Assembly: GCA_020852515.1 (NCBI GenBank)
Contig: JADZAS010000014.1
Location: 1 to 64,000 of the forward strand
DNA length: 64,000 bases
Direction: 5' to 3'
Source of the DNA: Phycisphaerales bacterium
GTDB taxonomy: Bacteria > Planctomycetota > Phycisphaerae > Phycisphaerales > UBA5793
Shown: positions 12,487 to 39,123 of the stretch, piece by piece
How the letters are laid out: each line of letters opens with the position of its first letter
How positions within the stretch are numbered: position 1 is the first letter of the stretch
Notes under the pieces: generated by a model
Databases searched by the model: none
What the model was told of the DNA's origin: nothing
The model's input: only the letters and a program-made list of their open reading frames with translations
Program-made: the position numbers and the translations under genes

Positions 12487-12579
12487 TCGACGAAGGCGAA
12501 CGGGCGACCGAGGCGGGTTGGGTGCGCGTGTCCCGCGTCCCGACCGATCACTTCAACTTTCCACTTTCTGAGGCAATCC

Positions 12580-14796: not shown

Positions 14797-14843
14797 CGGC
14801 CACGCGTGCGACGCCGAGGCGAGATGGAGATTGGGGACGAGAC

Positions 14844-17108: not shown

Positions 17109-17124
17109 AACGATTGGACCCGCC

Positions 17125-18699: not shown

Positions 18700-18968
18700 T
18701 GCCGGCGCGCCGCTCGAGTGCGTGGTGGGTGATCTGGGCGCTGGCGGCGGTGCTGTTCGTACTGCACCAGGACTTCTGGTTCTGGGATGACCGCACGCTG
18801 GTGCTGGGCTTTCTGCCCGTCGGGCTGGCGTATCACGTGGCCTACTCGGTCGCGGCGGCCCTGCTCTGGTTCGCGGCGGTCCGCTTCGCCTGGCCGCATC
18901 ACATCGAAGAATGGGCCGACGGGATCGAATCCGGTCCGAACCCACCCTCTCCGCGGATGAAGGCATGA
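18699..18968 (+). CDS. DUF3311 small membrane protein, symporter partner
   Basis: This protein of about 89 residues has two hydrophobic segments (WWVIWALAAVLFVLHQDFWFW and YHVAYSVAAALLWFAAVRFAW) and a short acidic tail. Small DUF3311 proteins are commonly encoded just before a sodium/solute symporter, as in the YhdT-PanF pair, and probably act as an accessory subunit. The ATG at 18699 overlaps the preceding stop (TGATG); a GTG at 18696 immediately before it is an alternative and both follow AAGGAG. Its stop overlaps the ATG of the symporter gene. Tight overlaps on both sides argue for coupled translation. Confidence 0.75.
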   Translation: MPARRSSAWWVIWALAAVLFVLHQDFWFWDDRTLVLGFLPVGLAYHVAYSVAAALLWFAAVRFAWPHHIEEWADGIESGPNPPSPRMKA

Positions 18969-21675: not shown

Positions 21676-23096
21676 CTCTGCCGCACTTTCCCATCCTGCG
21701 CTGGGGCGAACCCTACGAGAGCCTCGACGTTGACACCGTCGTGCACTTTGCCACGGGTGAAGAACTCTGCCAGGTCTCGCAGGCGAACCCGGGCTTGATC
21801 TCGCGCGACATGCGCCAGGCGCACCAGGCGCGCGAAGCGCTGCGGGCCATTCCCTGCGAGCAGTTGTGCCGCATTCTCAGCAGGGCCGCTGATCTCTTCA
21901 CAACTGCGCATCTCCCGATGGGCAGTGGCACGCAATCGCCCGACGATTTCGTGCGCTGCCAGAGCGCGACCACCGGTCTGCCCGAGCACATGTGCCGCTT
22001 CAACATGAGCAAGCTGCACCACGTGCTCACCAACCTCGACGCGATCCTCAACTCACTGACGCGCGGGCTCGACCGCTCCATCATGACGCGAGGCTACGGC
22101 TTCGAGGGCGACGTCATGCGGAGCATGCAGGCGAATTCGCCCGTGCTGGGCATGGTGCTGCCCTCCAATTCGCCCGGCACGCACGGCCTCTGGCTGCCCG
22201 TGCCGGCGCTGCAGATCGGCCTCGTGCTCAAGCCCGGGCCGCTTGAGCCGTGGACGCCTTTCCGCATGGCTCAGGCGTTCTTCGAAGCCGGCCTGCCGCG
22301 CGAATCGATCGGACTTTATCCGGGCGGCGCCGAAGTCGGCATGGCCGTCGTCAGCCACGTGTCGCGCACCATGATCTTCGGCAGCAAGGCCACCGTCGAG
22401 CAGTATCGCGGCAACCCGGCGGTGCAGGTGCACGGCCCGGGCTTCAGCAAGATCATCATCGGCGACGATTGCGTCGATCAGTGGGAGCGGCACCTCGATC
22501 TCATGGTGGACAGCATCCTGCTCAATGGCGGGCGAGGCTGCATCAACTGCTCGGGCATCTGGGTCTCGCGTCATGCGCGCGACATCGCCGAAGCCCTGGC
22601 GCAGCGCCTCGGCCCCATTGCCCCCCTGCCGCCCGCCGATCCGGCCGCGCCGCTCGCCGCGTTCACAATCGCCGCGCAGGCCGAGGGCATCAACGCGATG
22701 ATCGAGCAGGGCCTTGCGGAAAGCGGCGTGGAAGACGTAACGGCGCGGCACCGCGACGGCGACCGCCTGGTGGACGGCCAGCGGTGCGCCTACCTTCGAC
22801 CGACCATCATCCACTGCGATTCTCCGAAGCGAGCGCTGGCCAACACGGAGTTCATGTTCCCCTTCGCCAGCGTGGTCCAATGCCCGCAGAGCGAGATGCT
22901 CGCCGCCATCGGCGACACGCTGGTCGCCACGGTCATCAGCGAAGACGAGTCGTTCCGCCGGGCGGCCGTGGACGCCACGAACATCGACCGTCTCAATCTC
23001 GGGGCCGTGCCCACGACCCGTCTCAACTGGCTCCAGCCGCACGAAGGCAACATCATCAGTTTCCTGTACCGCGAACGCGCGCTGCAGATCGGATAG
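21672..23096 (+). CDS. Aldehyde-dehydrogenase-fold acyl reductase (EhpG/LuxC-like)
   Basis: The 474-residue product starts at TTG 21672, which overlaps the preceding stop and follows GGAAGG. It has the aldehyde dehydrogenase superfamily layout: LPSNSPGTHG (164-173), GLVLKPGPLEPW (183-194), FGSKATVEQY (236-245) and the nucleophile C290 in GGRGCINCSGIW. The general-base glutamate motif ELGGK of true dehydrogenases is replaced by HGPGFSK (254-260). That fits an enzyme that reduces an activated acyl group rather than hydrolysing a thioester, as in LuxC and EhpG. Coupled to the EhpF-like gene, it should make an aldehyde from a carboxylate with NAD(P)H. The following iron alcohol dehydrogenase could take the aldehyde to an alcohol. 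Confidence 0.75.
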   Translation: MTLPHFPILRWGEPYESLDVDTVVHFATGEELCQVSQANPGLISRDMRQAHQAREALRAIPCEQLCRILSRAADLFTTAHLPMGSGTQSPDDFVRCQSATTGLPEHMCRFNMSKLHHVLTNLDAILNSLTRGLDRSIMTRGYGFEGDVMRSMQANSPVLGMVLPSNSPGTHGLWLPVPALQIGLVLKPGPLEPWTPFRMAQAFFEAGLPRESIGLYPGGAEVGMAVVSHVSRTMIFGSKATVEQYRGNPAVQVHGPGFSKIIIGDDCVDQWERHLDLMVDSILLNGGRGCINCSGIWVSRHARDIAEALAQRLGPIAPLPPADPAAPLAAFTIAAQAEGINAMIEQGLAESGVEDVTARHRDGDRLVDGQRCAYLRPTIIHCDSPKRALANTEFMFPFASVVQCPQSEMLAAIGDTLVATVISEDESFRRAAVDATNIDRLNLGAVPTTRLNWLQPHEGNIISFLYRERALQIG

Positions 23097-23115
23097 CGCG
23101 CTGCGCAACGCAATG

Positions 23116-23204
23116 GCCGCAAAGAAGCACAAAAGTCACAAAACAAGGCGGACGGAACAGTTCTCTCAAACATTCGTTCTGTGCCCTTTGAGCCTCTTTG
23201 CGGC
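23116..23204. repeat. Imperfect inverted repeat (MITE/REP-like), 28-base arms
   Basis: Left arm 23116-23143 (GCCGCAAAGAAGCACAAAAG...) pairs with right arm 23177-23204 (...CTTTGAGCCTCTTTGCGGC) with few mismatches and a 33-base loop. It fills the gap between the acyl reductase and alcohol dehydrogenase genes. Elements of this look are scattered in many planctomycete intergenic regions; at the RNA level it would form a strong hairpin that could lower downstream expression. Confidence 0.65.
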
Positions 23205-23216
23205 AATCCTCGACCC

Positions 23217-24368
23217 ATGATCTCTCGGCCTCCCGATCTTGAAAGTGCCACGACGACGCGCATCGTCTTCGGTCCCGGCTCGCTCGCGCACATCGGCTCG
23301 CTGGTGTGCGAGCACGGCGGATCGCGCGTGCTGCTTGTGACCGATCAGGGTCTCGTCCGCGCGGGGCACGCGGCACGGGCGCAGGAGATTCTCGACGCGG
23401 CGGGGCTTGAGGTCGCCGTGTTCGACCATGTGCGACCCAATCCGACGGACCGCGACGTGGAGGCGTGCCTCGCCGTCGCGCGGCAGCGCGGGATCAACTT
23501 CTTCGTCGCGCTCGGCGGCGGCAGCGCGATCGATGCCGCCAAGGGTTGCAACTTTCTGCTGACCAACGGCGGTTCGATGCGCGACTACAAGGGCCGCGGT
23601 AAGGTGAGCACGCCGCTGCTGCCGCTCATCGCCATCCCCACGACTGCCGGGACGGGAAGTGAGGTGCAGTCGTTCGCCCTCATCGCTGACGAGCACACGC
23701 ACATGAAGATGGCGTGCGGCGACGATTCGGCAGCACCCCGCGTGGCCATTCTCGATCCCGAACTGGCCACGACCCAGCCGCAATCAGTGATCGCCGCCAG
23801 CGGAGTCGACGCGATCGCACACGCCGTGGAATCCTGTGTTGCTACGAATGCCACTGATGAGTCGCGGTCGTTTGCAGCCGCGTCATTTGCTCGAAGCGCG
23901 CGGCATTTCGAGCGGGTGCTGATTGACGCTCGCGACGTGGAGGCCCAGGGCCAGATGCTGCTGGCGGCGAGCATGGCCGGCATCTCCATTGAAAAGAGCA
24001 TGCTCGGCATCGCCCACTCGATGGCCAATCCGCTCACCGCGCACTTCGGCGTGGTGCACGGCGTGGCGGTCGGTCTCATGCTGCCGCACGTGGTTGAATT
24101 CAACGCGGCCGAGTCGAGTGCGGCCGGGCACTACCGCCTCCTCGCAACCGCAGGTGGATTCGCGGACGGCGCCTCGGGCCTTGCAGCGGCCCTGCGGCGC
24201 TGGCAGAATGCCGGGAGAATGCCGGATTCACTCGAATCACTCGGCGTTCCGCGCGAATCCCTGCCCACGCTCGCCGGGGAGGCCGCCGCCCAGTGGACCG
24301 CCCGCTTCAATCCTCGAACAGCGACGGCCGCGGACTTGCTCCGCCTGTACGAACAGGCGTATCGATAG
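23217..24368 (+). CDS. Iron-containing (type III) alcohol dehydrogenase
   Basis: The 383-residue product matches the iron-dependent alcohol dehydrogenase family. The nucleotide-binding loop is GGGSAID (100-106), with PTTAGTGSE (141-149) after it. The four metal ligands are D198, H202 (DAIAH), H267 and H281 (VHG), at the spacing seen in FucO. The second histidine of the usual HxxxH motif is N271 here, as in some subgroups. It should interconvert an aldehyde and an alcohol with NAD(P)H, and after the EhpF-like/acyl-reductase pair it would complete reduction of an acid to an alcohol. Maleylacetate reductase-like activity is a possible alternative. ATG 23217 is preferred; an upstream GTG at 23181 would place the start inside the inverted repeat. 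No clear ribosome site is visible. Confidence 0.8.
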   Translation: MISRPPDLESATTTRIVFGPGSLAHIGSLVCEHGGSRVLLVTDQGLVRAGHAARAQEILDAAGLEVAVFDHVRPNPTDRDVEACLAVARQRGINFFVALGGGSAIDAAKGCNFLLTNGGSMRDYKGRGKVSTPLLPLIAIPTTAGTGSEVQSFALIADEHTHMKMACGDDSAAPRVAILDPELATTQPQSVIAASGVDAIAHAVESCVATNATDESRSFAAASFARSARHFERVLIDARDVEAQGQMLLAASMAGISIEKSMLGIAHSMANPLTAHFGVVHGVAVGLMLPHVVEFNAAESSAAGHYRLLATAGGFADGASGLAAALRRWQNAGRMPDSLESLGVPRESLPTLAGEAAAQWTARFNPRTATAADLLRLYEQAYR

Positions 24369-24392
24369 ATGTGCATCCCTACAGTTCTGGCA

Positions 24393-25595
24393 ATGACCGC
24401 AAAGACGCGACGCATCAGATGCGCGGCCCTGGTGAGCCTTTCCCTGCTCACCGGTATGGTGGCGTGCGATCGCTCCGATCCCCCGGGTGACGAAGCCGCT
24501 CCTTCATCGGCGCCGGCCGCGCCGTCGATTGACGCTCAGTGGCCGATGTTCCGCGGCAACCGCGCCCAGACCGGCGTGGCGGATGGATCGCTCTCTACTC
24601 CTCTCGAACTCAAATGGACCTTCAGGGCCAATGAGGCCATCACCTCTTCGCCGGTCGTGCGCGATGGCCGCGTCTACGTCGGCTCGGACGATGGTCATCT
24701 CTACGCCGTCGATCTCAAGACCGGCGAACTTGCCTGGAAGTTCGCGTCGGAGGACACGATCGAAGCGCCGCCGATGATTCTTGACGGCGTGGTCTATGTC
24801 GGCTCTTCTGACTTTCGCATGTATGCCGTGGATGCGGCCAGCGGTAAAGAGAAGTGGCGCTTCGAGGCAGATGAGAAGATCCTCAGCGGCGCCAATTGGA
24901 TCGAAGGCTCCGACGGCGCCAAACAGATCATCTTCGGCTGCTACGACAACAAACTGTATTGCCTCAATGCCGCCGACGGCGCCAAGGTCTGGGCATACGA
25001 GACGGACAACTACGTGAACGGCACGCCCGCGGTGGATGACGGCCGCATCGTCTTCGGCGGCTGCGACTCGTTTCTTCACGTGGTCAACGCTGCGGACGGC
25101 TCCATGCTCAAGCGCGTGCCGCTCGGCGAGGAGTGCTACGTGGCCGGCTCGGTCGCCATCGCCGGCGGCCACGCGTACTTCGGGCACTACGGCAACGCCT
25201 TCATCTGCGTCGATCTGGCCGATGGCCAAACGAAATGGACCTACGCCAGCCCCCGCTACCCGTTCTTCTCCGCGCCGGCCATCGGCGGAGACCGCGTCAT
25301 TTTCGGCGGGCGCGACAAGCAGGTGCACTGCGTAAACCGCAGCACCGGTGAAGCGATCTGGACGTTTCCCACGAATCGCCAGGTCGACTCTTCGCCCGTG
25401 CTCTGCGATGGAAAAGTGGTGATCGGCTCGGGCGACGGGCGGCTGTTTGTTCTCGATTCTGCAACGGGACACGAGTTGTGGTCGTATGACCTTGGGAAGT
25501 CGATCATTTCCTCGCCCGCCGTGGTCGATGGCGTGGTGCTGATCGGCTGCAATGACGGCGGCCTCTACGCCTTTGGGCGCGCTTCCGAGCCTTGA
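24393..25595 (+). CDS. Lipoprotein PQQ-like beta-propeller (BamB-like)
   Basis: The product is about 400 residues long. The N-terminus MTAKTRRIRCAALVSLSLL ends in the lipobox GMVAC, predicting a lipid-anchored protein, unlike the other propellers here, which have cleavable signals. After an acidic, Ala/Pro-rich linker the propeller begins WPMFRGNRAQTG. Its blades are very regular: VRDGRVYVGSDDGHLYAVDLKTGELAWKF, VDDGRIVFGGCDSFLHVV and VDGVVLIGCNDGGLYAF. This short, even repeat pattern is closest to BamB-type and PQQ_2 domains. An upstream ATG at 24369 directly after the previous stop is an alternative start. As a lipoprotein it could dock a soluble partner at a membrane. It separates the reductases from the radical SAM gene. 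Confidence 0.78.
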   Translation: MTAKTRRIRCAALVSLSLLTGMVACDRSDPPGDEAAPSSAPAAPSIDAQWPMFRGNRAQTGVADGSLSTPLELKWTFRANEAITSSPVVRDGRVYVGSDDGHLYAVDLKTGELAWKFASEDTIEAPPMILDGVVYVGSSDFRMYAVDAASGKEKWRFEADEKILSGANWIEGSDGAKQIIFGCYDNKLYCLNAADGAKVWAYETDNYVNGTPAVDDGRIVFGGCDSFLHVVNAADGSMLKRVPLGEECYVAGSVAIAGGHAYFGHYGNAFICVDLADGQTKWTYASPRYPFFSAPAIGGDRVIFGGRDKQVHCVNRSTGEAIWTFPTNRQVDSSPVLCDGKVVIGSGDGRLFVLDSATGHELWSYDLGKSIISSPAVVDGVVLIGCNDGGLYAFGRASEP

Positions 25596-25604
25596 CGAAC
25601 TGAC

Positions 25605-26948
25605 ATGACCGAACAGAGTTCACACAACCTCCCGATTCTCGACGCGGGCAAGTCCGAGCAGACCACGGCGGGAAACTACTTCGTGGCGAATTACCCGCCG
25701 TTCTCGTTCTGGTCGCCGGAGCAGAATGGTCGCGTGCACGACCTGCTCGACGCACCCGCCGCGCAGGATGTGCCGCTGGGCCTCTACGTGCACATCCCCT
25801 TCTGCCGCAAGCGCTGCGATTTCTGCTACTTCAAGGTCTACACGGATAAGAACTCGCGCGAGATTCACGGCTACCTCGACGCCGTCATTGCCGAAGCCGG
25901 CCGCTATGCGCACAAGGCGTATCTCGCGGGGCGCTCGCCGCGCTTCGTTTACTTCGGCGGAGGCACGCCGTCGTACCTCTCGGCGCAGCAACTCGAGTAT
26001 CTCTTCCGCGGCCTGCAGCGCTGGTTCCCCTGGGACGAGGCTGAAGAGATCGCCTTCGAGTGCGAACCGGGCACGTTGCAGGAAAGCAAGATCAAGGCGC
26101 TGCGCGAGCTGGGCGTCACGCGGCTGAGTCTGGGCGTGGAGAACTTCGATCCCGAGATTCTCGAGATCAACAACCGCGCCCACCGGGCCGTCGAAATCGA
26201 CCGGGCGTACAACTACGCCCGCGAAGTCGGCTTCGAGCAGATCAACATCGACCTCATCGCGGGCATGGTCGGAGAAACGCAGGCGAACTGGGAGTCGTGC
26301 ATCGAGAAGACGATTGCGATGAAGCCCGAGAGCGTCACCATCTACCAGATGGAAATCCCCTACAACACGACGATCTACCAGCGGATGAAAGACGGCGGCC
26401 AGCAGGTCGCCCCGGTGGCCGACTGGCGCACCAAGCGCCGCTGGGTGCATGAGGCGTTCGCGCGGCTCGAAGAAGCGGGCTATCTCATCGGCAGCGCCTA
26501 CACCGCCGTGCGCGACGCCAGCGTGCAGTTTCTCTATCGCGATGCGCTCTGGACCGGCGCGGACATGCTCGGACTGGGCGTCTCGTCGTTTTCGCATCTC
26601 GGCGGGATCCACTTCCAGAACGAGCATCGCTTTGAACCGTACGTCGAGCGCGTGCAGGCCGGCGCATTGCCCATTCACCGCGCTCTGGTGATGACTCCTG
26701 AAGAGCGGCTCATCCGCGAATTCGTCCTGCAGATGAAGCTCGGCCGCGTGCGCGACCAGTACTTCAAGGACAAATTCGGCGTGAGCGTGATCGACCGATT
26801 CCGGGAGCCGCTGCTCAAGCACGCGGGCAACGGACACATGACGATCCAGGATGGCATCATCACCTCCAGCCGCGACGGTCTGCTGCAGATCGATCGCCTG
26901 CTGCACGACTTCTTCCTCGATCGCCATCGGGATGCGCGATACGCGTAG
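25605..26948 (+). CDS. HemW/HemN-like radical SAM enzyme
   Basis: The 447-residue product has the radical SAM cluster motif CRKRCDFC, with C67, C71 and C74 binding the [4Fe-4S] cluster, followed by FGGGTPSYLS (117-126), LGVENFDPEIL and INIDLIAGMVGET. This is the coproporphyrinogen oxidase-like (HemW/HemN) subgroup. HemW-like proteins include haem chaperones and the class C radical SAM methyltransferases used in natural-product pathways. No porphyrin gene is nearby, and the gene sits inside an aromatic-compound cluster. I therefore favour a biosynthetic role such as methylating an unreactive aromatic carbon, but haem-related function is not excluded. It starts nine bases after the propeller stop and is followed after 14 bases by the glycosyltransferase. 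Confidence 0.75.
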   Translation: MTEQSSHNLPILDAGKSEQTTAGNYFVANYPPFSFWSPEQNGRVHDLLDAPAAQDVPLGLYVHIPFCRKRCDFCYFKVYTDKNSREIHGYLDAVIAEAGRYAHKAYLAGRSPRFVYFGGGTPSYLSAQQLEYLFRGLQRWFPWDEAEEIAFECEPGTLQESKIKALRELGVTRLSLGVENFDPEILEINNRAHRAVEIDRAYNYAREVGFEQINIDLIAGMVGETQANWESCIEKTIAMKPESVTIYQMEIPYNTTIYQRMKDGGQQVAPVADWRTKRRWVHEAFARLEEAGYLIGSAYTAVRDASVQFLYRDALWTGADMLGLGVSSFSHLGGIHFQNEHRFEPYVERVQAGALPIHRALVMTPEERLIREFVLQMKLGRVRDQYFKDKFGVSVIDRFREPLLKHAGNGHMTIQDGIITSSRDGLLQIDRLLHDFFLDRHRDARYA

Positions 26949-26962
26949 AGGCTGCCGCCGCG

Positions 26963-28291
26963 ATGCGAATCGTCCAGTTGATTCCGGGCACGGGGAGTTT
27001 CTACTGCGGCAGTTGCCTGCGCGACAACACGCTCGGCCACGCGCTGCGGCGGCGGGGCCACGATGTGCAGATGGTGCCGCTCTATCTGCCCTTCATGCTC
27101 GAAGAGCACGATCCCCAGGAGAATGAAGCCGTCTTCCTCGGCGGCATCAACATGTACCTGCACCAGAAGGCGCCAATCGTCTCGCGCCTGCCGCACTGGA
27201 TGCTCGGCTGGCTCGATTCGCCGCGCCTGCTGCGCTGGGCCTCCAGGCGCAGCGACATGACCGGCGCGGCCGAACTGGGCGATCTCACCCTTTCCACCCT
27301 GCGCGGCCGGCGCGGGCGCCAGGCGGCCGAAGTCGATCGTCTCATCAACTGGCTCCGCGGCGAACCGCGCCCCGACGTGATCCTGCTCTCCAACGCGATG
27401 CTCTGCGGGCTCGTCGAACCACTCCTCGAGGAGGCGCGCTGCCCGATCGTGTGCAGCCTGCAGGGTGAAGCGCCGTTTCTCGATTCGCTTCCGCTCTCCC
27501 ATCGGGCCCAGGCGTGGCGGCTCATGCGAGACCAGCTGCGCGGCGTGCGCCGGTTCATCGCCGTCAGCCGCTACTACGGTGAACTCATGACCGACCGGCT
27601 GGCGCTGCCGCCCGACCGCGTGCAGGTGATCCACAATGGCATCGAACTCGACGACCTGCCGCGTTCGGATTCTGTCGCCCGCGAGCGGCGGCCCACGATC
27701 GGCTACCTGGCGCGCCTGTGCGCCGACAAGGGGCTGCACACGCTGTGCGATGCCTTTATTCTGCTCAAGAAGCGGCCGGAGTTCGCCGCCGCCCGTCTCA
27801 GGCTGGCGGGGGCGATGCTCAAAGGCGACCGGCCGTTCGTGCAGCAGCAGCGGCGGAAGCTGCGGCGCGCTTCCGTGCTGGGCGACGTCGAATTCCTGCC
27901 CAACATCGAGCGCAGCGCCAAGATCGACCTGCTTCGCAGCCTCGACGTACTTTCAGTGCCTGCGACGTACGGCGAGTCGTTCGGCCTCTATGTACTCGAA
28001 GCGCTGGCGTGCGGCGTGCCGGTCGTCCAGCCACGCCATGCGTCCTTTCCCGAACTGCTCGAAGCGACGGGCGGCGGCGTGCTCTGCGAGCCGAACGATC
28101 CCGCGGCGCTGGCCGAAGCGCTGGCCGCGCTGCTGACTGACGCCGCGGGCGCCCGGGCCCTTGGGGCTGCAGGTCGCGCCCGCGTTCGCGAACACTTCAG
28201 CGCCGATCGAATGGCGCGCGAGGTCGAGCAGATGTGTATGATGCTCACTTCAGCGCCGGCCGCAGCGGCGGCCGATCCTCTTCCCGCCTGA
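26963..28291 (+). CDS. Glycosyltransferase family 4 protein
   Basis: The 442-residue GT-B fold protein has an N-terminal acceptor domain opening MRIVQLIPGTGSFYCGSCLRDN. The C-terminal half carries VIHNGIEL, IGYLARLCADKGLHTL and the EX7E-type donor site within ATYGESFGLYVLEALACGVPVV. These are hallmarks of retaining GT4 enzymes that use nucleotide sugars. The product has no membrane segment and should act in the cytoplasm, adding a sugar to a small molecule or lipid. Lying between the radical SAM and thioesterase genes with short spacers, it may decorate the cluster product; it could equally belong to envelope polysaccharide synthesis, although no other polysaccharide gene is near. The N-terminal FYCGSCLRDN segment, with two cysteines, is typical of a planctomycete subgroup. 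Confidence 0.78.
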   Translation: MRIVQLIPGTGSFYCGSCLRDNTLGHALRRRGHDVQMVPLYLPFMLEEHDPQENEAVFLGGINMYLHQKAPIVSRLPHWMLGWLDSPRLLRWASRRSDMTGAAELGDLTLSTLRGRRGRQAAEVDRLINWLRGEPRPDVILLSNAMLCGLVEPLLEEARCPIVCSLQGEAPFLDSLPLSHRAQAWRLMRDQLRGVRRFIAVSRYYGELMTDRLALPPDRVQVIHNGIELDDLPRSDSVARERRPTIGYLARLCADKGLHTLCDAFILLKKRPEFAAARLRLAGAMLKGDRPFVQQQRRKLRRASVLGDVEFLPNIERSAKIDLLRSLDVLSVPATYGESFGLYVLEALACGVPVVQPRHASFPELLEATGGGVLCEPNDPAALAEALAALLTDAAGARALGAAGRARVREHFSADRMAREVEQMCMMLTSAPAAAAADPLPA

Positions 28292-28304
28292 GTGGATCAA
28301 GACG

Positions 28305-28775
28305 ATGCACTACGAGTTTCGAGCACGGCGACTGGTCGAATTCGCAGACACCGACACCGCCGGCATCATGCACTTTGCCAACTACTTCCGCTTCATGGAG
28401 GCGGTCGAGCACGCGTTTATCCGCACGCTCGGCGAAACCGTGCACGAGCAGGACGGCCACCGCATGGCCGGCTGGCCGCGCGTTGAGGTGTCCTGCCGCT
28501 ACTTTGCGCCCGTGCGCTTTCAGGACACCGTGGAAGTCCACCTGCTCGTTCTCCGCAAGACCGACAAGGCAATCACCTACGGCTTTGTCTTTCGCAAAGT
28601 GAACATGGATGGCACGCTTGAAGGCATGCCCGTGACCGCGCGAGGCGTGGTCACCGCACTGTACGCGACGAATCACACACCCGACGGCCGCATGCGCGCT
28701 GCCAGCATGCCCGAGGCGTTTGTGCGGCTCATCGACACCGCGCCGGCCGAACTGCTCATCCAGGAGGGATTCTGA
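28305..28775 (+). CDS. Acyl-CoA thioesterase, 4-hydroxybenzoyl-CoA thioesterase type
   Basis: The 156-residue single hotdog domain shows the 4HBT/YbgC active-site pattern FADTDTAGIMHFANYFRFME. The Asp at residue 17 corresponds to the catalytic aspartate of the Pseudomonas 4-hydroxybenzoyl-CoA thioesterase. Members hydrolyse short-chain or aromatic acyl-CoA. It could release a hydroxybenzoyl or related acid from its thioester after modification, or edit the pathway. The gene lies 13 bases after the glycosyltransferase and two bases before the EamA-like gene, and a CoA ligase acting on similar substrates is encoded two genes on. Confidence 0.82.
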   Translation: MHYEFRARRLVEFADTDTAGIMHFANYFRFMEAVEHAFIRTLGETVHEQDGHRMAGWPRVEVSCRYFAPVRFQDTVEVHLLVLRKTDKAITYGFVFRKVNMDGTLEGMPVTARGVVTALYATNHTPDGRMRAASMPEAFVRLIDTAPAELLIQEGF

Positions 28776-28777
28776 AC

Positions 28778-29329
28778 ATGCCCGAAACGACCACCTCTCC
28801 CGGCTCGGCGTGGATCACCTTTGCGCTCATGACGGTGGCATGCTGGGGTGTGTACGGCATCTTCCTGCACACGGGCCAGGTGAACATGGCCGACCCCTCC
28901 AGCGGGCGCTACAAAGCGTTTCTCTGGGTCGGTATTGCATATTTTCTCATCGCGGTGCTCGCGCCGGCGGGGATGCTGCTGGCCGTCGGCTCGAGCTGGT
29001 CAATGCCGGCCAAGGGAATCGCCTGGTCGCTGCTCGCCGGCGTGGTCGGCGCCGTCGGAGCGTTCTGCGTGCTTCTGGCGTTCGGCGCCAAAGGAAATCC
29101 GGCGGTCGTCATGTCGATCATTTTCGCCGGCGCGCCCATAGTGAACGCCATTGTCGCGATCTGGATGCACCCGCCAGCCGGCGGCGTCGGCGCCATCCGC
29201 TGGCCGTTCTTCCTCGGCATTCTCATGGCAGCCGGTGGAGGCACGCTCGTCACGCTTTACAAACCCCCGCCGACGCCCATCTCACACGCCGCCGTCCCAG
29301 GCGCTTCGGCAGCGCCTGCGGACCACTGA
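28778..29329 (+). CDS. Small EamA/DMT-like integral membrane protein
   Basis: The 183-residue protein has five likely hydrophobic segments: WITFALMTVACWGVYGIFL, WVGIAYFLIAVLAPAGMLLA, AWSLLAGVVGAVGAFCVLLAFG, VVMSIIFAGAPIVNAIVAIW and WPFFLGILMAAGGGTLVTLY. This is about half the length of a normal ten-helix EamA drug/metabolite transporter, so it would need to dimerise, as four- and five-helix members do. It is a candidate exporter or importer for the cluster product or an intermediate. The tail is Ala/Pro-rich. It is closely packed with the thioesterase gene before it and the CoA ligase gene after it. Confidence 0.65.
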   Translation: MPETTTSPGSAWITFALMTVACWGVYGIFLHTGQVNMADPSSGRYKAFLWVGIAYFLIAVLAPAGMLLAVGSSWSMPAKGIAWSLLAGVVGAVGAFCVLLAFGAKGNPAVVMSIIFAGAPIVNAIVAIWMHPPAGGVGAIRWPFFLGILMAAGGGTLVTLYKPPPTPISHAAVPGASAAPADH

Positions 29330-29338
29330 GCTTCGGTC

Positions 29339-30640
29339 ATGAACGAACGTCTCTTTTTCAGCCGAGAGTCACTGCGCGACCAGCAACTGGACTCGCTCTG
29401 CGGGCTCATCGAGAAGATCAAGGACACCAATCCGTTCTGGCGGGCCCGCCTGCGAGCCGCAGGGGTGGATGAGAACATCGAGTCACTCGAAGCGTTCGCA
29501 GCGCGCCTGCCGCTGCTGACGAAGGCCGACCTCGCTGCAGACCAGGAAGCGCATCCACCCTACGGCACGAATCTCACGACTTCGATCGATGCGTACGTGC
29601 GCGTCCACCAGACGAGTTCGACGACGGGCAATCCGCTGCGCTGGCTCGATACCGAGGACAACTGGCACTGGCTTTTGGCCGGCTGGGATACGGTGCTGGA
29701 CGTCGCGGATGTCACTGAATTCGACTGCCTGTTCTTCGCCTTCTCGTTCGGTCCGTTCATCGGTTTCTGGATGGCGTGGGACGCGGCGCTGGACCTGGGC
29801 TGCCGGTGCATTTCCGGCGGGGCCATGAACACCGCCACGCGGGTGCGCGCCATCATCGCCAACGAGGTCACGGTCCTGCTGTGCACGCCGACGTATGCCA
29901 TTCGCCTCGGCGAATCGGCCCGGGAACAGGGCATTGATTTCAGCAGCGCCAAAGTCCGCCGGATCATCGTCGCCGGCGAGCCGGGCGGCAGCGTCCCCGC
30001 GGTGCGCAGCCGCATCGAGCAACTCTGGCCGACCGCGCGCGTTTTCGATCATCACGGCATGACCGAAGTCGGACCCGTCACGTTCGAATGTCCGCGCCGG
30101 CCGTGCGTGCTGCACGTGGATGAAGGCCGGTACCTTTGCGAGATCATCGACCCCGCAACCGGCCGGCCGCTGCCGGCCGAGGACGGCGCCACGGGCGAAA
30201 TGGTCATCACCGCGCTCGGTCGCGAGGACTCGCCGGTGCTGCGCTATCGCACCGGCGACATGGTGCGGTGCGAGACGAGCGGAGCGTGCCTCTGCGGCCG
30301 CTTGACCATGCGCCTCATCGGCGGCATCATCGGTCGCGTGGATGACATGGTCGTCGTTCGCGGCACCAATCTCTACCCCAGTGCGCTCGATGCGCTGCTC
30401 GGGCCGTTTACGGAGGTCGTCGAATATCGCGCCGAGATCGGCAAGCACGCGGGAATGACCGAACTGACGTTGATCATCGAGCCCGCGCCGGAGGTCGCCG
30501 AGCCGGGCGGCCTGTGCCGGCGCGTCGAGCAGGCCATTCGCGATGCGTGGAACCTGCGCGTGCCGGTGCGCGCCGCGCCGCCGGGCGAACTGCCCCGTTT
30601 CGAACTCAAAGCTCGCCGGTGGGTGCGCCTGGAAGAGTGA
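29339..30640 (+). CDS. Phenylacetate-CoA ligase (PaaK)-like adenylating enzyme
   Basis: The 433-residue product follows the PaaK layout. The ATP loop is TSSTTGNP (92-99), the aromatic-pocket and adenylate motif is FDHHGMTEVGP (around 238-248) and the hinge region is LRYRTGDMVRCE (around 301-312). VVVRGTNLYPSALDALL opens the C-terminal lid, where PaaK enzymes have a KxRG.N.(F/Y)P segment. These enzymes make acyl-AMP and then acyl-CoA from aromatic acids, or load carrier proteins. With a UbiC-like chorismate lyase next door, a hydroxybenzoate is the natural candidate substrate; this is inference. It is followed by 123 bases without a gene and then the lyase. Confidence 0.78.
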   Translation: MNERLFFSRESLRDQQLDSLCGLIEKIKDTNPFWRARLRAAGVDENIESLEAFAARLPLLTKADLAADQEAHPPYGTNLTTSIDAYVRVHQTSSTTGNPLRWLDTEDNWHWLLAGWDTVLDVADVTEFDCLFFAFSFGPFIGFWMAWDAALDLGCRCISGGAMNTATRVRAIIANEVTVLLCTPTYAIRLGESAREQGIDFSSAKVRRIIVAGEPGGSVPAVRSRIEQLWPTARVFDHHGMTEVGPVTFECPRRPCVLHVDEGRYLCEIIDPATGRPLPAEDGATGEMVITALGREDSPVLRYRTGDMVRCETSGACLCGRLTMRLIGGIIGRVDDMVVVRGTNLYPSALDALLGPFTEVVEYRAEIGKHAGMTELTLIIEPAPEVAEPGGLCRRVEQAIRDAWNLRVPVRAAPPGELPRFELKARRWVRLEE

Positions 30641-30763
30641 ACCGATCGCAACCGCCCGGCCGGCCGCCGATAGAACCGTTTCGACCGAGTCGTCAGCAGC
30701 AGCAGCGCGGCCGGTCCCCTACCATCCACCGCCTTTTGCCGGGCCGCTGAGGACGCCGCGCTC

Positions 30764-31333
30764 ATGACGCCACTGGTGCACCGCATCGCCGATCTGATGT
30801 TTCCGCTCGAAGAGTTCTACGCGGACCGCGGCGACGCCCTGCCCCGGATCGAAGCCGTGAGCGCCGGCGATCTGCCGCCGCCCTATCGCGACCTGCTCGT
30901 ACACGAGCGCGACATGACCACCACTCTGGAGGAGCACTTCGGCGAGCCGGTGGCGCTGCGACTGCTCGAGGTTCGGCGCGATGGCCCGTGGCTGCGGCGC
31001 CAGGTGGTGCTCGTCGGGTCCTCGAGCGACCGGCCGGTCGAGTTCGGCGCGATCCGCATCGACCTGGGCCGCTTCGATAGTGACGCCGTGCGCCGCATTG
31101 TTGATTGCCGCCAGCCGCTGGGCGCCATCCTCCACGACTGCGGCGTCGAGCACGCCTGCCGCCCGTCCGCGTTCTTCCGTTTCGTCAGCGACGCGGCCAC
31201 GCGAGCTGCATTCGAACTCGCCGGCCCCACCACGCTGTATGGCCGCCACACGTTGATTCACAATCAGAATGATCAGACCCTGGCGGAAGTGGTCGAGATT
31301 CTGCCGCCAATCGGCAAGGTTCACCAGGCATGA
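30764..31333 (+). CDS. UbiC-like chorismate lyase family protein
   Basis: The 189-residue product aligns with chorismate pyruvate-lyase. It has the early LLVHERDMTTTLEEHFGEP segment (44-62), the R78-R79 pair in WLRRQVVLV, the LGAILHD stretch (119-125), and the end LYGRHTLIH then LAEVVEILPP. R79 and E178 would correspond to the substrate-binding Arg and catalytic Glu of E. coli UbiC. The enzyme would release pyruvate from chorismate to give 4-hydroxybenzoate. No ubiquinone genes are present, and the neighbours (CoA ligase, thioesterase, halogenase-like oxidase) argue for secondary metabolism. The stop overlaps the ATG of the oxidase (ATGA). Similarity is at motif level and the family is diverse, so the assignment is probable rather than certain. 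Confidence 0.65.
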   Translation: MTPLVHRIADLMFPLEEFYADRGDALPRIEAVSAGDLPPPYRDLLVHERDMTTTLEEHFGEPVALRLLEVRRDGPWLRRQVVLVGSSSDRPVEFGAIRIDLGRFDSDAVRRIVDCRQPLGAILHDCGVEHACRPSAFFRFVSDAATRAAFELAGPTTLYGRHTLIHNQNDQTLAEVVEILPPIGKVHQA

Positions 31334-32622
31334 TAACGCAAACTCAGGTCGTCGAGTGCGATGTCGTCGTCATCGGCGCGGGTCCCGCGGGCTCTTCGGC
31401 GGCGGCAATCCTCGCCGGGCACGGCCGGCGCGTCATCATGCTCGAGCGCCAAACCTTCCCGCGCTATCGCATCGGTGAGTCGCTCATTCCCTACTGCTGG
31501 TTCCCCCTTCGTCGGCTCGGCATGATCGAGCGCATCGACGCGGCGGCGTGCACCATCCAGAAGCACAGCGTTCAGTTTGTCGGCCTCGACGGCAAGCAGA
31601 CCACTCCGTTCTACTTTGCTTCGCACACAGATCACGACTGCGCGCGAACCTGGCAGGTGGTGCGCAGCGCCTTCGATCAGTTGCTCCTCGAGAACGCGAC
31701 GGACAAGGGAGCCGAGGTCCGCTTCGGGCTCAGTGCGCGGCAACTGCTGCGCGAAGGCGAAACCAACATCGGCGTCGCAGCCGCTGATGAACAGGGACAA
31801 TCGATCGAGTTTCGCGCGCCCATGACCATTGACGCCAGCGGGCGCGAGTGCCTGTCCCTCAAGGAGCGCGGCTGGCGCATCGATGATCCACATCTGCGCA
31901 AGATCGCACTGTGGACCTACTACACGGGCGCCAAACGCGACGAGGGCATCGACGAAGGCGCCACGACCGTCGCGTATCTTCCCGACAAAGGCTGGTTCTG
32001 GTACATCCCGCTGCCGGATGACAAGGTCAGCGTCGGCATCGTCTGTGAGCGCGACTACTTGTATCGCGAGCCGGAACTGGACCCGAAAGCGATGTTCGAG
32101 CGCGAGGCGAAGATCCAGCCGTGGATCGCCGAGCACCTTGCCGGCGCCACGCAGGTCGGCGAGTTTCGCGTGACCGGCGATTATTCATACCGCTCGCGCT
32201 ACTGCGCCGCCGACGGGCTGGTGCTGGCCGGCGATGCGTTCGGCTTCCTTGACCCGGTCTTCTCTTCGGGCGTCTTCCTCGCGCTCTACACCGGCGTGCT
32301 TGCCGGCGACGCCGTCCACGAGGCGCTGGCGGCGGGCGATGTCTCCGCATCGCGCTTCGCCGCATACGGCGAAAAGTTCCGCAGCGCCATCGAAGCCATG
32401 CGCCGCCTCGTCTACGCCTTCTACGACACCGACTTCAGTTTCGGAACCTTTCTCAAGGCGCACCCGGAGTTTCGAAGCGACCTCACTGACTGCCTCATCG
32501 GCAACGTCGAGCGAGACTTCAATCCCCTCTTCAACGCGGCGTCTGAATTCGCCGACATCCCGGCCCCCCTGCCGCACGGCCAACCGCTCACGTCGCCAAC
32601 CGGCAGGGCGAGCCGGGTCTGA
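31330..32622 (+). CDS. Flavin-dependent halogenase-like FAD monooxygenase
   Basis: The 430-residue product begins with the FAD-binding GAGPAG (16-21) and GESLIP (49-54). It carries GWFWYIP at 221-227, the GWxWxIP motif characteristic of flavin-dependent halogenases, and FLDPVFSSG at 306-314, which fits the Fx.Px.Sx.G pattern of the phenol/pyrrole halogenase branch. Some proteins with these motifs are reductases or monooxygenases, so halogenation is a reasoned guess. The branch usually acts on substrates tethered to carrier proteins or on free phenols. Translational overlap with the UbiC-like gene points to a hydroxybenzoate-derived substrate. No separate flavin reductase gene was seen in the cluster. 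Confidence 0.7.
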   Translation: MITQTQVVECDVVVIGAGPAGSSAAAILAGHGRRVIMLERQTFPRYRIGESLIPYCWFPLRRLGMIERIDAAACTIQKHSVQFVGLDGKQTTPFYFASHTDHDCARTWQVVRSAFDQLLLENATDKGAEVRFGLSARQLLREGETNIGVAAADEQGQSIEFRAPMTIDASGRECLSLKERGWRIDDPHLRKIALWTYYTGAKRDEGIDEGATTVAYLPDKGWFWYIPLPDDKVSVGIVCERDYLYREPELDPKAMFEREAKIQPWIAEHLAGATQVGEFRVTGDYSYRSRYCAADGLVLAGDAFGFLDPVFSSGVFLALYTGVLAGDAVHEALAAGDVSASRFAAYGEKFRSAIEAMRRLVYAFYDTDFSFGTFLKAHPEFRSDLTDCLIGNVERDFNPLFNAASEFADIPAPLPHGQPLTSPTGRASRV

Positions 32623-32669
32623 GGTGATACGCTTGCCAGGTGTCGCAGAGTTCCACGCGTGGGCGGTGA

Positions 32670-33392
32670 GTGCAAAGCGTGAATGACGGGCAACCGCTGC
32701 TGCGGGCGATCCATGTGTGCAAGCAGTATCCAGGCCCGGCCGGCGGCGAGCCGCTGCGGGTGCTGGCGGATGTCTCGCTGCAGGTCGATCGCGGCGGATC
32801 CATCGCCATCGTCGGACCCTCCGGCTGCGGCAAGAGCACGCTGCTCAACATCCTCGGCGCCCTCGACGCCCCCACGACCGGCGAGGTGTGGTGCGGCGCG
32901 CAGCGCATCGACAAGCTTGCGCCGCGCGACAGCGCTGCGTTTCGACGCGATCGCATCGGGTTCATCTTTCAGATGCACCATCTTCTGCCTCAGTGCACGG
33001 CGATCGAGAATGTCCTCATCCCGACGCTGGCTCGAGGCAGGGCAGCGCGCGACGCCGCCGCAAACCAGCGCGCTGAGCAACTGCTCGCGGACGTTGGTCT
33101 CGGCGAGAGGCTGCACCACCTTCCGGGTCAGTTGTCCGGCGGCGAGTGCCAGCGCATCGCCGTCGTGCGGGCGCTCATCAACGAACCGGATCTGATCCTC
33201 GCTGACGAACCCACGGGTTCGCTCGACGGCGACACGGCGCGCGACGTCTGGGCCATGCTGGCGCGGATGTGCTCCGAGCGCCAGGTCGCACTGATCGCCG
33301 TGACGCACGCGCGCCCGCTCGCCGAGCAACTCGACCGGCTGATTGAACTGCGCGGCGGAGCACTCGCAGACCGCGGGACCGCGACGCCATGA
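32670..33392 (+). CDS. ABC transporter ATPase, LolD/MacB type
   Basis: The 240-residue ATPase has Walker A GPSGCGKST, the FQMHHLLPQ Q-loop region, signature LSGGE (with C in GGECQR), Walker B LILADEPTG and H-loop VTHARP. The FQxHxLLPxxTxxENV pattern is that of LolD/MacB/FtsE-like ATPases that drive FtsX-type permeases working on lipoproteins or exported small molecules. GTG 32670 is used as the start; a second GTG at 32679 is an alternative and neither has a clear site. The stop overlaps the ATG of the permease. Together they would move a compound or lipoprotein outward from the inner membrane; context suggests export of the cluster product. Confidence 0.85.
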   Translation: MQSVNDGQPLLRAIHVCKQYPGPAGGEPLRVLADVSLQVDRGGSIAIVGPSGCGKSTLLNILGALDAPTTGEVWCGAQRIDKLAPRDSAAFRRDRIGFIFQMHHLLPQCTAIENVLIPTLARGRAARDAAANQRAEQLLADVGLGERLHHLPGQLSGGECQRIAVVRALINEPDLILADEPTGSLDGDTARDVWAMLARMCSERQVALIAVTHARPLAEQLDRLIELRGGALADRGTATP

Positions 33393-36300
33393 GCCTCTGG
33401 CGACTGGTCTGGCGCAGCGTCGTCTACGACCGCCGCTCGCTCCTGGCGACGCTGCTGGGCGCCGCGCTGGCGGCGATGGCGCTCGTCGGCTCGCTCATCA
33501 TCGGCGACTCGGTCCGCTACACCCTGCGGCAGCAGGCGCAATGGCGCATCGGCGCCGTCGATCGAGCGATGAGCACCGGCGACCGACTCATCCGCGCCGA
33601 ACTCGCCGACACCGTCGCCGCCGATGCGCCGCAGTCCTCCATCGCCCCCGTGCTGCAACTGCAGGGCATCGCCGCCACGGCCGATGGCGGCAGGCGGGCG
33701 CTCGACGTCGCGGTGCTGGGTGTCGATGAACGATTCTTTGCCATGGCGCCGACACCGGCTCGCATCGATCTTCATCCCGGCCGGGTCTGGCTCAATGCCG
33801 CGCTGGCGGCGCAACTCAGCGCCGCCACCGGCGACACGATCGTCGTCCGCGTCAACAAGCCCACCGCGCTCTCGCGCGATCTGACCTTTGCAACAACCGA
33901 CGACGCCGTGCTCGCGCTGCGCGTGGAAGTGGCGGGAGTGGTTGATGATGAGCAGTTCGGCCGCTTCAGCCTCGCGGCGAACCAGCAGCCCCCGTTCAAC
34001 GCGTTTGTGCCGCTGGACTGGCTCGGCCAGCAGTCGGCACAATTCGGCCGCGCGAATCTGCTGCTGCAGAGCGATGGCATGCCTGCGCCGACTGGCGATC
34101 AACTCGCCGCCGCCGTTGCGTCCAGTTGGAGCATCGATGATCTTTCGCTCGCCACGCGGTCCAGCGCAACCGATGGCACGCTTGAGTGGCGCAGCAGCCG
34201 GGTGTTCCTCGATGATGAAGTGGCCGACGCCGCGGCTCGACTGGAGCCAGAAGCCATCGGCCTGCTCACGTACTTTGTCAACGAGATCCGCCGCGCTGAT
34301 CGCTCCACGCCCTACTCCACGATCACTGGAATCGGCCCGCTGAATGAAGGCGCCGCGCTGCCCCAGGCATGGCAGCCCATCATCCCGGCCGATCTGAAGG
34401 CCGATGAAATCGTCATCCCGCGCTGGCTGGCCGACGACCTGCGGGCCTCCGTCGGCGATCGGCTCGATGTGCGCTATTTCGAACTCGCCGCCGGAAGAAC
34501 ACTGCGGGAAGCCTCATCCACCTTTGCGGTGCGCGCGATCATCGAGTCAACCGGACCCGCGGCCGATGCGCAACTCATGCCCGACATCCCGGGGCTGACC
34601 GACAGCGCCGACTGCCGTGACTGGAATCCCGGGGTGCCCATCGATCTCGATCGCATTCGCGACAAGGACGAGCAGTACTGGGATGAGCATCGCGGCACTC
34701 CCAAAGCGTTCATCAGCCTCGACGCGGCCCGCGCGCTGTGGAGCAATCGCTTCGGCAGCCTCACCGCAATCCGCACCCCCGCAGCGCAGCAAGGCAGGCT
34801 CGCACCGGCCGCGTTGCTCGCGAATCTGAATCCGCAACACTTCGGCCTCACGTTCCAACCTGTACGAACGGCCGCGCTGGCCGCGGCGAACCCGACGACT
34901 GACTTCGGCGGCCTGTTCATCGGCCTGAGCCTGTTTCTGATCGTCGCCGCCCTTCTCCTGACGGGGATGCTCTTTGCATTCACCGTCGATCAGCGCCGCC
35001 GGCAGATGGGCACGCTCCTGGCCGTCGGCTGGAGCGGCTGGATGGTGCGCGGCTGGCTGCTGCGCGAGGCGATCCTCGTCGCTGCGTCCGGCTCGGTTGC
35101 CGGCGCGCTGCTCGCCGTCGCGTACAGTCGCGCCCTGCTCGCCGCGCTGCAAGGCATGTGGAAAGGCGCAGTGGCCTCAGCGGCCCTGGATCTGCACGTC
35201 ACGTGGATGACCCTCGCCATCGGCGCCGTCATCTCGTTCGTCGCCGCCATGATCGCCATGCACCTTGCCGCCCGGCGACTGCTCAGGCAACACGCCGTGG
35301 ACCTCCTGTCGGGCAAACCCGATGATCGCGCTGTGTTTGGCGCGAGTGCGCGGCGCTGGCTCCTGCCGGCTGCCGCGACGCTGTGCCTCGTTGCCGGACT
35401 CGGCTGCATCGCGTGGGCAGCGGCGGGCGAGCAGGGCGCCGCGATCGCCGCTTTCTTCACGTCCGGCACGCTGCTGCTCATCGCGGGAGTCCTCGCGTCG
35501 CGCTGGGTTCTCACACGACTCGTGTTGCAGGGCGATGAGGCTCGCCTCACGCCGCGTCTGCTCGCGCTGCGCAGCGCCGCTCGCCGGCCCGGGCGCTCCA
35601 CCGCGACCATCGCTCTGCTCGCGTCCGGCTGCTTTCTCGTCGTCGCCGTCGGTTTGAATCGACTGCCCACGCCCGATCCCGCCTCGCGAAGCTCCGGTAC
35701 GGGCGGCTTTGCACTCCTCGGCCAATCCTCCATTGCGCTGCTGGCGGATCTCAACACACCCGAAGCGCGCCAGGCGGCGAATCTCGATGCCGAGCTCTTC
35801 CGCGACGTGTCGTTCGTGCCGCTGCGCATCCGCGCCGGCGACGAGGCGAGTTGCCTGAATCTCAACCGGGCTCAGCAGCCGCGCGTGCTGGGAGTGAATC
35901 CCGATCTTCTCGCGCAGCGCGATGCCTTTACCTTCGCCTCCACACTGAACGAACCGGCCGGCCCGAGCCCGTGGATGCTGCTCAGCGAGAGCGGCGGCGA
36001 GGGCGGCGTCATTCCCGCCATCGTCGATCAGGCCTCAATGATGTGGGCCATGCACCGCTCGCTGGGCGATGTGATCACCTATCAGAACGCGCAGGGCGAC
36101 ACGGTAAAACTGCAACTCGTCGCCTCGCTGGCCAACTCCATCCTGCAGGGCAATCTCATCATCAGCGAATCGAACTTTGAACGGGCGTTCCCATCCGAGG
36201 CCGGCCACCGCATGCTGCTCATCGACTGCCCGCCGGACAAGGCCGACGCGGTCAGCCAGGCGCTCATGCGCGCCTTTGCCGACATTGGTCTGCAGATCAC

Positions 36301-36724
36301 GCCGACGGCCCAGCGCCTGGCGGAGTTCAACGCGGTCCAGAACACTTACATGGCGGTCTTTCAGGTGCTCGGGGGGTTGGGCGTCATCGTGGGCACCGCC
36401 GGGCTGGGCATGGTGCTCGTGCGCAACGTGAGCGAGCGGCGCGGCGAACTGGCGCTGCTGGCCGCCGTCGGCTTTGTGCCGCGCCAGGTGCGTCGCCTGC
36501 TGCTCATCGAGCACGCAGCACTGCTGGCGCTGGGCCTGGGCGTGGGTGTGATTGCCGCCGTGCCCGCCGTCTGGCCAGCCCTGGCCCAGTCCGGCTCGCC
36601 GGCGTCGCTGGGCGTCACGCTGCTCATCGTGATCCTCATCGCCGCCACGGGCGCCGCGTCGGTTGTTCTGGCAACGCACTGGGCCACGCGCGGCCGGCTC
36701 ATGGATTCCCTCCGCCGCGAGTAG
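33389..36724 (+). CDS. ABC transporter permease with two FtsX/MacB domains
   Basis: The 1111-residue product has an N-terminal membrane segment (about 18-38) and a large periplasmic region (about 40-495). A block of helices follows at about 505-640 (FIGLSLFLIVAALLLTGMLF, REAILVAASGSVAGALLAVA). Two further helices lie at about 650-720, a second periplasmic domain at about 755-985, and a final helical block at about 990-1100 (VFQVLGGLGVIVGTAGLGMVLV, LLALGLGVGVIAAVPAVWPAL). Length and repeat layout match the long fused FtsX-type permeases. It pairs with the ATPase encoded just upstream (ATGA overlap). The last 38 bases of the gene and the stop are part of a 42-bp direct repeat, which marks the left edge of an inserted segment. 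Confidence 0.82.
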   Translation: MSLWRLVWRSVVYDRRSLLATLLGAALAAMALVGSLIIGDSVRYTLRQQAQWRIGAVDRAMSTGDRLIRAELADTVAADAPQSSIAPVLQLQGIAATADGGRRALDVAVLGVDERFFAMAPTPARIDLHPGRVWLNAALAAQLSAATGDTIVVRVNKPTALSRDLTFATTDDAVLALRVEVAGVVDDEQFGRFSLAANQQPPFNAFVPLDWLGQQSAQFGRANLLLQSDGMPAPTGDQLAAAVASSWSIDDLSLATRSSATDGTLEWRSSRVFLDDEVADAAARLEPEAIGLLTYFVNEIRRADRSTPYSTITGIGPLNEGAALPQAWQPIIPADLKADEIVIPRWLADDLRASVGDRLDVRYFELAAGRTLREASSTFAVRAIIESTGPAADAQLMPDIPGLTDSADCRDWNPGVPIDLDRIRDKDEQYWDEHRGTPKAFISLDAARALWSNRFGSLTAIRTPAAQQGRLAPAALLANLNPQHFGLTFQPVRTAALAAANPTTDFGGLFIGLSLFLIVAALLLTGMLFAFTVDQRRRQMGTLLAVGWSGWMVRGWLLREAILVAASGSVAGALLAVAYSRALLAALQGMWKGAVASAALDLHVTWMTLAIGAVISFVAAMIAMHLAARRLLRQHAVDLLSGKPDDRAVFGASARRWLLPAAATLCLVAGLGCIAWAAAGEQGAAIAAFFTSGTLLLIAGVLASRWVLTRLVLQGDEARLTPRLLALRSAARRPGRSTATIALLASGCFLVVAVGLNRLPTPDPASRSSGTGGFALLGQSSIALLADLNTPEARQAANLDAELFRDVSFVPLRIRAGDEASCLNLNRAQQPRVLGVNPDLLAQRDAFTFASTLNEPAGPSPWMLLSESGGEGGVIPAIVDQASMMWAMHRSLGDVITYQNAQGDTVKLQLVASLANSILQGNLIISESNFERAFPSEAGHRMLLIDCPPDKADAVSQALMRAFADIGLQITPTAQRLAEFNAVQNTYMAVFQVLGGLGVIVGTAGLGMVLVRNVSERRGELALLAAVGFVPRQVRRLLLIEHAALLALGLGVGVIAAVPAVWPALAQSGSPASLGVTLLIVILIAATGAASVVLATHWATRGRLMDSLRRE

Positions 36725-37703: not shown

Positions 37704-37788
37704 CCACCGCCCGCAGAACCAGTGATCGAACAACCGGTAAACCCGGTCAGCGCTATCGTTCCCGGCTGGCACACTTTCGGAGCAAGAC

Positions 37789-39096: not shown

Positions 39097-39123
39097 ACAA
39101 CCGAACGAACGATGGAGATACTC

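Follow-up and report, generated by a model that had tools for sequence, protein, structure and literature searches.

A chorismate-lyase-fold protein and a halogenase-family oxidase in a conserved planctomycete operon of possible aromatic metabolism

In the marine bmp/4-BP pathway, a chorismate lyase is combined with a flavin halogenase and a P450 (PMC10579414). Flavin halogenases of the variant-B type are currently annotated by the motifs WxWxIP and FxxPxxSxG together with a lysine, and WxWxI is thought to block monooxygenation (PMC5945002, PMC12871659); Bmp5 possesses neither WxWxIP nor FxxPxxSxG (PMC12871659). QhpG, a CmlS-like flavoprotein in which Trp181 and Trp183 line the channel of flavin adenine dinucleotide (FAD), dihydroxylates a peptide tryptophan (PMC7876137). 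From planctomycetes, the sole halogenated metabolite found in the literature searched is 3,5-dibromo-p-anisic acid, a hydroxybenzoate derivative (PMC8868522), and no description of the gene cluster reported here surfaced in that search, most subscription journals being outside its coverage. This cluster is an operon in a 64-kb stretch (the window) of the genome of a Phycisphaerales bacterium (contig JADZAS010000014.1, positions 1 to 64,000), in which a chorismate-lyase-fold protein and a halogenase-family oxidase are encoded next to each other. The host genome comprises 4.72 Mb in 39 contigs, and its nearest named relatives are metagenome-assembled genomes (MAGs) of Planctomycetota/Phycisphaerales.

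It is proposed that the operon serves to produce and export a small aromatic molecule derived from chorismate, and that the oxidase halogenates (more likely than hydroxylates) the ring of a hydroxybenzoyl thioester; the chances of this proposal being right or wrong seem to us evenly balanced. It rests on the genes present, on their folds and conserved residues, and on their synteny and co-occurrence, from which we infer all substrates, the order of the steps and the halogenation. The genes on which the proposal turns are the following.

25605..26948, + strand: HemN/HemW-like radical S-adenosylmethionine (radical-SAM) protein, core gene (PF04055, E 3.8e-23; CxxxCxxC at the HemN position)
28305..28775, + strand: 4HBT/YbgC-type hot-dog thioesterase (PF13279, E 7e-9; PF03061, E 3e-8)
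29339..30640, + strand: PaaKb, PaaK-like enzyme of aryl-coenzyme A (CoA) ligase type (PF00501, E 1.4e-12; PF14535, E 7.5e-9)
30764..31333, + strand: chorismate-lyase-fold (UbiC-like) protein outside PF04345 and PF01947 (assigned by predicted fold and residues)
31330..32622, + strand: halogenase-family FAD oxidoreductase with WxWxIP, FxxPxxSxG and K78 (PF04820 Trp_halogenase, E 1.2e-26)

The last four were described in an earlier reading of the window (the initial annotation) as a sub-operon at 28305-32622. They are indeed present there in the order listed, all in one direction (+) and of coding-like composition, and all but the UbiC-like gene are supported by Pfam. The overlap between the UbiC-like gene and the oxidase gene, also noticed earlier, amounts to 4 bp between the stop of the former and the start of the latter. 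The sub-operon is enclosed in a same-strand (+) run of genes at 18911-36724, most of which had been left out, including a small membrane protein (28778-29329) and the core radical-SAM gene.

The UbiC-like protein has no match in Pfam, even at E 10. Its AlphaFold2 model, built from 14 homologues, has a mean predicted local distance difference test score (pLDDT) of 91.6. In a Foldseek search with this model, the DUF98 protein 2nwi ranks first (E 4.7e-7, TMt 0.76), UTRA ligand-binding domains come second, and Escherichia coli chorismate lyase with its bound product (1jd3; E 3.3e-4, TMt ~0.6) follows. In UbiC, 4-hydroxybenzoate is held by Arg76, Glu155 and the amides of Met34 and Leu114 (PMC7879144). 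When 109 homologues from three phyla were aligned, the columns of UbiC Arg76, Gly90, Met34, Thr35, Pro113, Gly115 and Arg140 were found to be kept in 109/109, that of Glu155 in 108/109 and that of Leu114 in 104/109; R79 and E178 of the operon's protein correspond to R76 and E155, respectively. The family profile likewise matches UbiC (E 6.7e-6, probability 85%). Considering the UbiC-like fold and the conserved product-binding residues, it is likely that the protein is a chorismate lyase, and the earlier identification is thus upheld.

The predicted fold and the catalytic and product-binding residues are shared with E. coli UbiC (PF04345) and with the DUF98 Rv2949c-like lyases (PF01947). In contrast, identity to UbiC is only ~22% across the aligned part, there is an extra segment after PLG, and the invariant His47 of the family has no UbiC counterpart in the alignment. 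The family appears to have slipped past Pfam annotation. No protein of PF04345 or PF01947 was found elsewhere in the host genome, and a canonical UbiC or DUF98 protein there was set aside on this ground. It may be argued that the protein cleaves some other enolpyruvyl substrate (e.g. aminodeoxychorismate) or binds a ligand, and that the substrate of the oxidase is unrelated, since the fold is common to UTRA regulatory domains and the match between the family profile and UbiC is weak. This is quite improbable in our judgement, considering that the UbiC catalytic and product-contact residues are nearly invariant in the 109 sequences and that the protein has no DNA-binding domain. An UTRA-type regulator was rejected on these same two grounds.

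In the oxidase, the motifs quoted in the initial annotation as diagnostic of halogenases are found at residues 221-227 (GWFWYIP) and 306-314 (FLDPVFSSG). The best matches by sequence in the PDB are all halogenases (8zop, 3e1t, PltA, ChlB4 and CmlS). The structural comparison that had been suggested gives a similar picture, as the closest folds to the model (pLDDT 87.6) are 8zop FasV, PltA, Bmp2, ChlB4 and CndH. Among 67 full-length homologues, GxGPxG (the FAD motif GxGxxG) and WxWxIP are present in all 67, and the FxxPxxSxG tunnel motif in 64. K78 is aligned to the lysine of FasV, CndH, PltA, CmlS, Bmp2, Mpy16, RadH and SgcC3; all characterised halogenases included in the tree have a lysine at this position, and so does the oxidase family, in which one of 26 rows is an exception; the lysine is invariant in a further homologue alignment (A2).

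In a maximum-likelihood tree, the oxidase family forms a clade of its own, apart from all characterised enzymes. The outgroup was the nearest paralogue in the host genome, which is geranylgeranyl-reductase-like, and QhpG sequences were left out of the tree. The exact point of attachment of the clade is unsure, because a number of the deep branches are poorly supported and long. A position among geranylgeranyl reductases, named earlier as the outcome that would speak against a halogenase, was not observed; the paralogue has neither WxWxIP nor the serine motif nor the lysine, and the NCBIfam geranylgeranyl-reductase model falls below its cut-off on the oxidase. A geranylgeranyl-reductase-type identity is accordingly rejected by motifs, structure and tree. 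An assignment to the halogenase family, as claimed from the start, is supported, since motifs, lysine, structure and tree alike place the oxidase with the variant-B-type flavin halogenases. With FasV, CndH, CmlS, PltA, Bmp2/Mpy16 and SgcC3 it shares the fold, WxWxIP, FxDPxxSxG and the lysine position, but it differs from the CndH/PltA group in being only about 28-36% identical, in its separate clade, in an SVQF signature after the lysine and in its partner genes.

The parallel with bmp drawn in the initial annotation may now be qualified. Its concept of a lyase beside a flavin halogenase stands, with 4-hydroxybenzoate as a probable intermediate in both systems (PMC10579414). Homology of the oxidase to Bmp5 is rejected, as the oxidase carries the motifs that Bmp5 lacks (PMC12871659). 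The operon differs further in that its lyase lies outside PF04345, in the addition of a ligase, a thioesterase and a radical-SAM enzyme, and in that no P450 is seen among its genes. It is therefore a fresh variant on the bmp concept and not a bmp homologue, neither enzyme being strictly homologous.

The cluster genes are syntenic in 13 genomes of the order, with the gene order unchanged or permuted, and the lyase-oxidase pair is adjacent in two different operon arrangements. A contig scan for which the lyase was the sole seed gave 193 relatives, of which 80 were kept (Planctomycetota, Verrucomicrobiota and Acidobacteriota). On the fetched pieces of these 80 loci, the radical-SAM gene is present in 54 and the oxidase in 51. 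The oxidase gene immediately follows the lyase gene in 43 of the 68 loci with room for it; the radical-SAM gene immediately precedes the lyase gene in 45/73 loci and is nearby in 8 more. Some Acidobacteriota loci (L057, L082 and L086) consist of a short set, namely radical-SAM enzyme, lyase, oxidase and ligase with or without thioesterase. The grouping of the cluster genes is not due to chance, because it recurs in the 13 related genomes and in other phyla.

To these loci may be added co-occurrence in 392 sampled Planctomycetota genomes, for which an oxidase cut-off of E <= 1e-110 was chosen by us. The lyase was detected in 66 genomes and the oxidase in 85; the oxidase is present in 66/66 lyase-positive versus 19/326 lyase-negative genomes (p 5e-58, Fisher test, relatedness being ignored). 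Twenty genomes were selected for a lyase locus without an adjacent oxidase on the fetched piece, and all of them have an oxidase homologue elsewhere (19 at E <= 1e-130 and one at 1.6e-82). In three Acidobacteriota (L177-L179), this oxidase lies beside the radical-SAM gene, thioesterase and ligase, and in six lyase-negative genomes (L187, L189, L192, L193, L195 and L196) the oxidase directly follows the radical-SAM gene. The radical-SAM gene therefore stays beside the oxidase in several genomes, even where the lyase lies elsewhere or was not detected. Acidobacterial oxidases nest among planctomycete ones in the tree, which suggests cross-phylum transfer.

A few individual loci deserve mention. 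Strain ZRK34 (L035), a culturable carrier, has a complete chromosome on which the cluster is found. In three Verrucomicrobial loci (L054, L061 and L070) the lyase gene stands alone between predicted peptidase and aminotransferase-like genes; in the two of these genomes checked, L054 and L061, the oxidase is located elsewhere. Five MAGs with the cluster or its lyase (L040, L053, L054, L100 and L106) are titled Akkermansia muciniphila, a species name that looks doubtful. The contig WYBR01000138.1 (L032) is titled Vicinamibacteraceae, seemingly wrongly, as it belongs to a genome from the same genus as the window; the upstream genes of its cluster are absent on the fetched stretch.

PaaKb scores 169.8 bits against the NCBIfam PaaK equivalog, whose cut-off is 646, and is thus PaaK-like but not PaaK. 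The thioesterase is above the cut-offs of PF03061 and PF13279, and the catalytic Asp motif [DE]TDxxG[IV] is present in 48/48 homologues. Several of the characterised halogenases closest to the oxidase work on carrier-bound acyl groups. This, together with the recurrent co-location of ligase and thioesterase, supports the thioester route that had been put forward earlier.

There is also a similarity between PaaKb and FlxY, a flexirubin ligase (E 4e-38). Related halogenase-family enzymes of Azospirillum and Roseomonas occur in clusters with ketosynthase (KS), FabG and MMPL that resemble aryl-polyene clusters; in Pseudoalteromonas, the accompanying genes are those for KS, FabG, thioesterase and LolA. 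It is conceivable from these likenesses that the chain of a larger lipid or pigment, akin to aryl polyenes or phenolic lipids, is made elsewhere in the genome and that the operon contributes the aromatic head group. We consider this very improbable, since the scan of the operon genes revealed neither a ketosynthase nor a chain-length factor, acyl carrier or MMPL exporter, and the families that recur as neighbours are the ones present in the window operon. An aryl-polyene cluster as such was rejected for want of ketosynthase, chain-length factor and carrier protein among the same genes.

The best PDB match of the radical-SAM enzyme is HemN (1olt), followed by the methyltransferase NocN, and CxxxCxxC is present in 75/75 homologues. 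It shares the HemN-like architecture and this motif with the radical-SAM methylases NosN/NocN and CoeI, which act on aromatic substrates (PMC9714029), but it differs from them in reaching no NCBIfam cut-off; it is a candidate class C radical-SAM methylase.

From these components a pathway may be drawn. The lyase would strip pyruvate from chorismate to give a hydroxybenzoate, most likely 4-hydroxybenzoate, which PaaKb would activate to an acyl-CoA (or other) thioester. The oxidase, using FADH2 (reduced FAD) from a reductase encoded elsewhere, would then attack the phenol ring, halogenation being more likely than hydroxylation. The HemN-like enzyme would probably add one carbon, for example by C-methylation, for which NosN/NocN and CoeI are precedents, and the thioesterase would free the acid. 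In planctomycetes, a second adenylate-forming enzyme (PaaKa), an aldehyde dehydrogenase and an iron-containing alcohol dehydrogenase could optionally carry out a reduction of the acid, giving an aldehyde or alcohol, and a glycosyltransferase and transporters would complete the product and its export.

The initial annotation had proposed a halogenated or hydroxylated benzoate made from chorismate. Of this, the lyase, the halogenase family and the thioester are supported, and of the two reactions halogenation is the more probable. Motifs alone do not decide the matter, because the hydroxylase QhpG has a similar Trp pair and the oxidase clade lies apart from all characterised enzymes. An oxidase acting in the same pathway as a flavin monooxygenase, hydroxylating the hydroxybenzoyl group to a catechol-type product and retaining the halogenase motifs as an ancestral inheritance, is a possibility to be taken seriously, albeit on the doubtful side. 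It is favoured by the proven dihydroxylase activity of QhpG, which is likewise a CmlS-like flavoprotein with a Trp-lined channel facing the FAD (PMC7876137), by the match of the NCBIfam QhpG model to the oxidase (E 3e-37), by the separate clade, away from every characterised halogenase, and by the wide conservation over many habitats, which fits an oxygenase better. However, FxxPxxSxG and the aligned lysine are kept too, the matches to FasV, PltA and CndH are far stronger than that to QhpG, and the WxWxI motif is believed to block monooxygenation (PMC5945002, PMC12871659). No Qhp genes are recognised in the operon.

Halogenation of a hydroxybenzoyl thioester thus remains our preferred reading, against which several observations weigh. 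The WxW pair is not exclusive to halogenases, being present in QhpG also (PMC7876137). Two homologues in full syntenic clusters deviate, one (L059) having no lysine and the other (L044) CSG for SSG in the FxxPxxSxG motif. Neither a flavin reductase nor a carrier protein was recognised among the operon genes. A halogenated specialised metabolite does not usually occur so broadly, in lineages of soil, groundwater and freshwater. Finally, 19 genomes keep an oxidase, in several of them beside the radical-SAM gene, but have no detected lyase, and therefore hydroxybenzoate may not be the universal substrate. These 19 also favour a different substrate for the lyase-fold protein, but its co-occurrence with the oxidase is complete in the one direction (66/66).

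The recurrence of the gene set in three phyla suggests an uncharacterised pathway of wide distribution, leading to an aromatic compound that is oxidised or halogenated. In a more far-reaching version, which we offer tentatively and think rather unlikely to hold in full, a new lyase family shared by Planctomycetota, Verrucomicrobiota and Acidobacteriota would provide hydroxybenzoate that, once bound to CoA, is acted on by halogenases of a new clade and by a HemN-like radical-SAM alkylase; the product, an aryl metabolite both C-alkylated and halogenated, would be made widely in soils and waters. If the oxidase halogenates, organohalogen biosynthesis would be far commoner in these little-studied phyla than assumed. 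If it hydroxylates, the present halogenase motif rules would mislabel a large group. This uncharacterised clade is found in 85/392 of the sampled Planctomycetota genomes (E <= 1e-110) and also in Verrucomicrobiota and Acidobacteriota.

The other genes of the run at 18911-36724 are as follows.

18911..20599, + strand: sodium:solute symporter (SSS family), upstream arm (PF00474, E 2.8e-36; syntenic in planctomycete relatives)
20596..21675, + strand: PaaKa, short PaaK/LuxE-like adenylate-forming enzyme of 359 amino acids, no C-terminal domain (PF00501, E 3e-7; syntenic)
21606..23096, + strand: aldehyde dehydrogenase-superfamily protein (PF00171, E 2.4e-27; syntenic)
23181..24368, + strand: iron-containing alcohol dehydrogenase (PF00465, E 1.8e-52)
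24369..25595, + strand: BamB/ACSF4-like beta-propeller protein with apparent lipoprotein signal (PF13570, E 1.6e-66; in 45/80 lyase-seeded loci)
26963..28291, + strand: GT4 glycosyltransferase (PF00534, E 1.1e-26; in 34/80 lyase-seeded loci)
28778..29329, + strand: small multi-pass membrane protein, DMT-like by inspection (no match in Pfam or NCBIfam; syntenic)
32670..33392, + strand: ATP-binding cassette (ABC) transporter ATPase, LolD/MacB type (PF00005, E 1.3e-33)
33389..36724, + strand: FtsX/MacB-type permease of 1111 amino acids (PF02687, E 2e-18; syntenic)

The GTG start listed for the aldehyde dehydrogenase (21606) makes its reading frame run into PaaKa, and the real start is probably downstream. 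This enzyme is possibly an acyl reductase partnered with PaaKa, which would work in the reductive direction.

BamB/PQQ-type beta-propeller genes, at least seven in number, are located beside or inside the operon (8646-18699, 24369-25595 and 37789-40932), an unusual local expansion. A minus-strand open reading frame at 37753-40875 (1040 amino acids) was rejected as a gene, being an antisense shadow of two of the beta-propeller genes. Upstream of the beta-propeller run, genes for ExbB (MotA/TolQ/ExbB family), an ExbD-like protein and TonB are located at 6771-8636. Tandem paralogues of a small membrane protein, with the N-terminus MRxRLRSTIKWxGTVLTVLLLVVWVGSAWW, are encoded at 51243-52714, and a further copy at 41893-42354.

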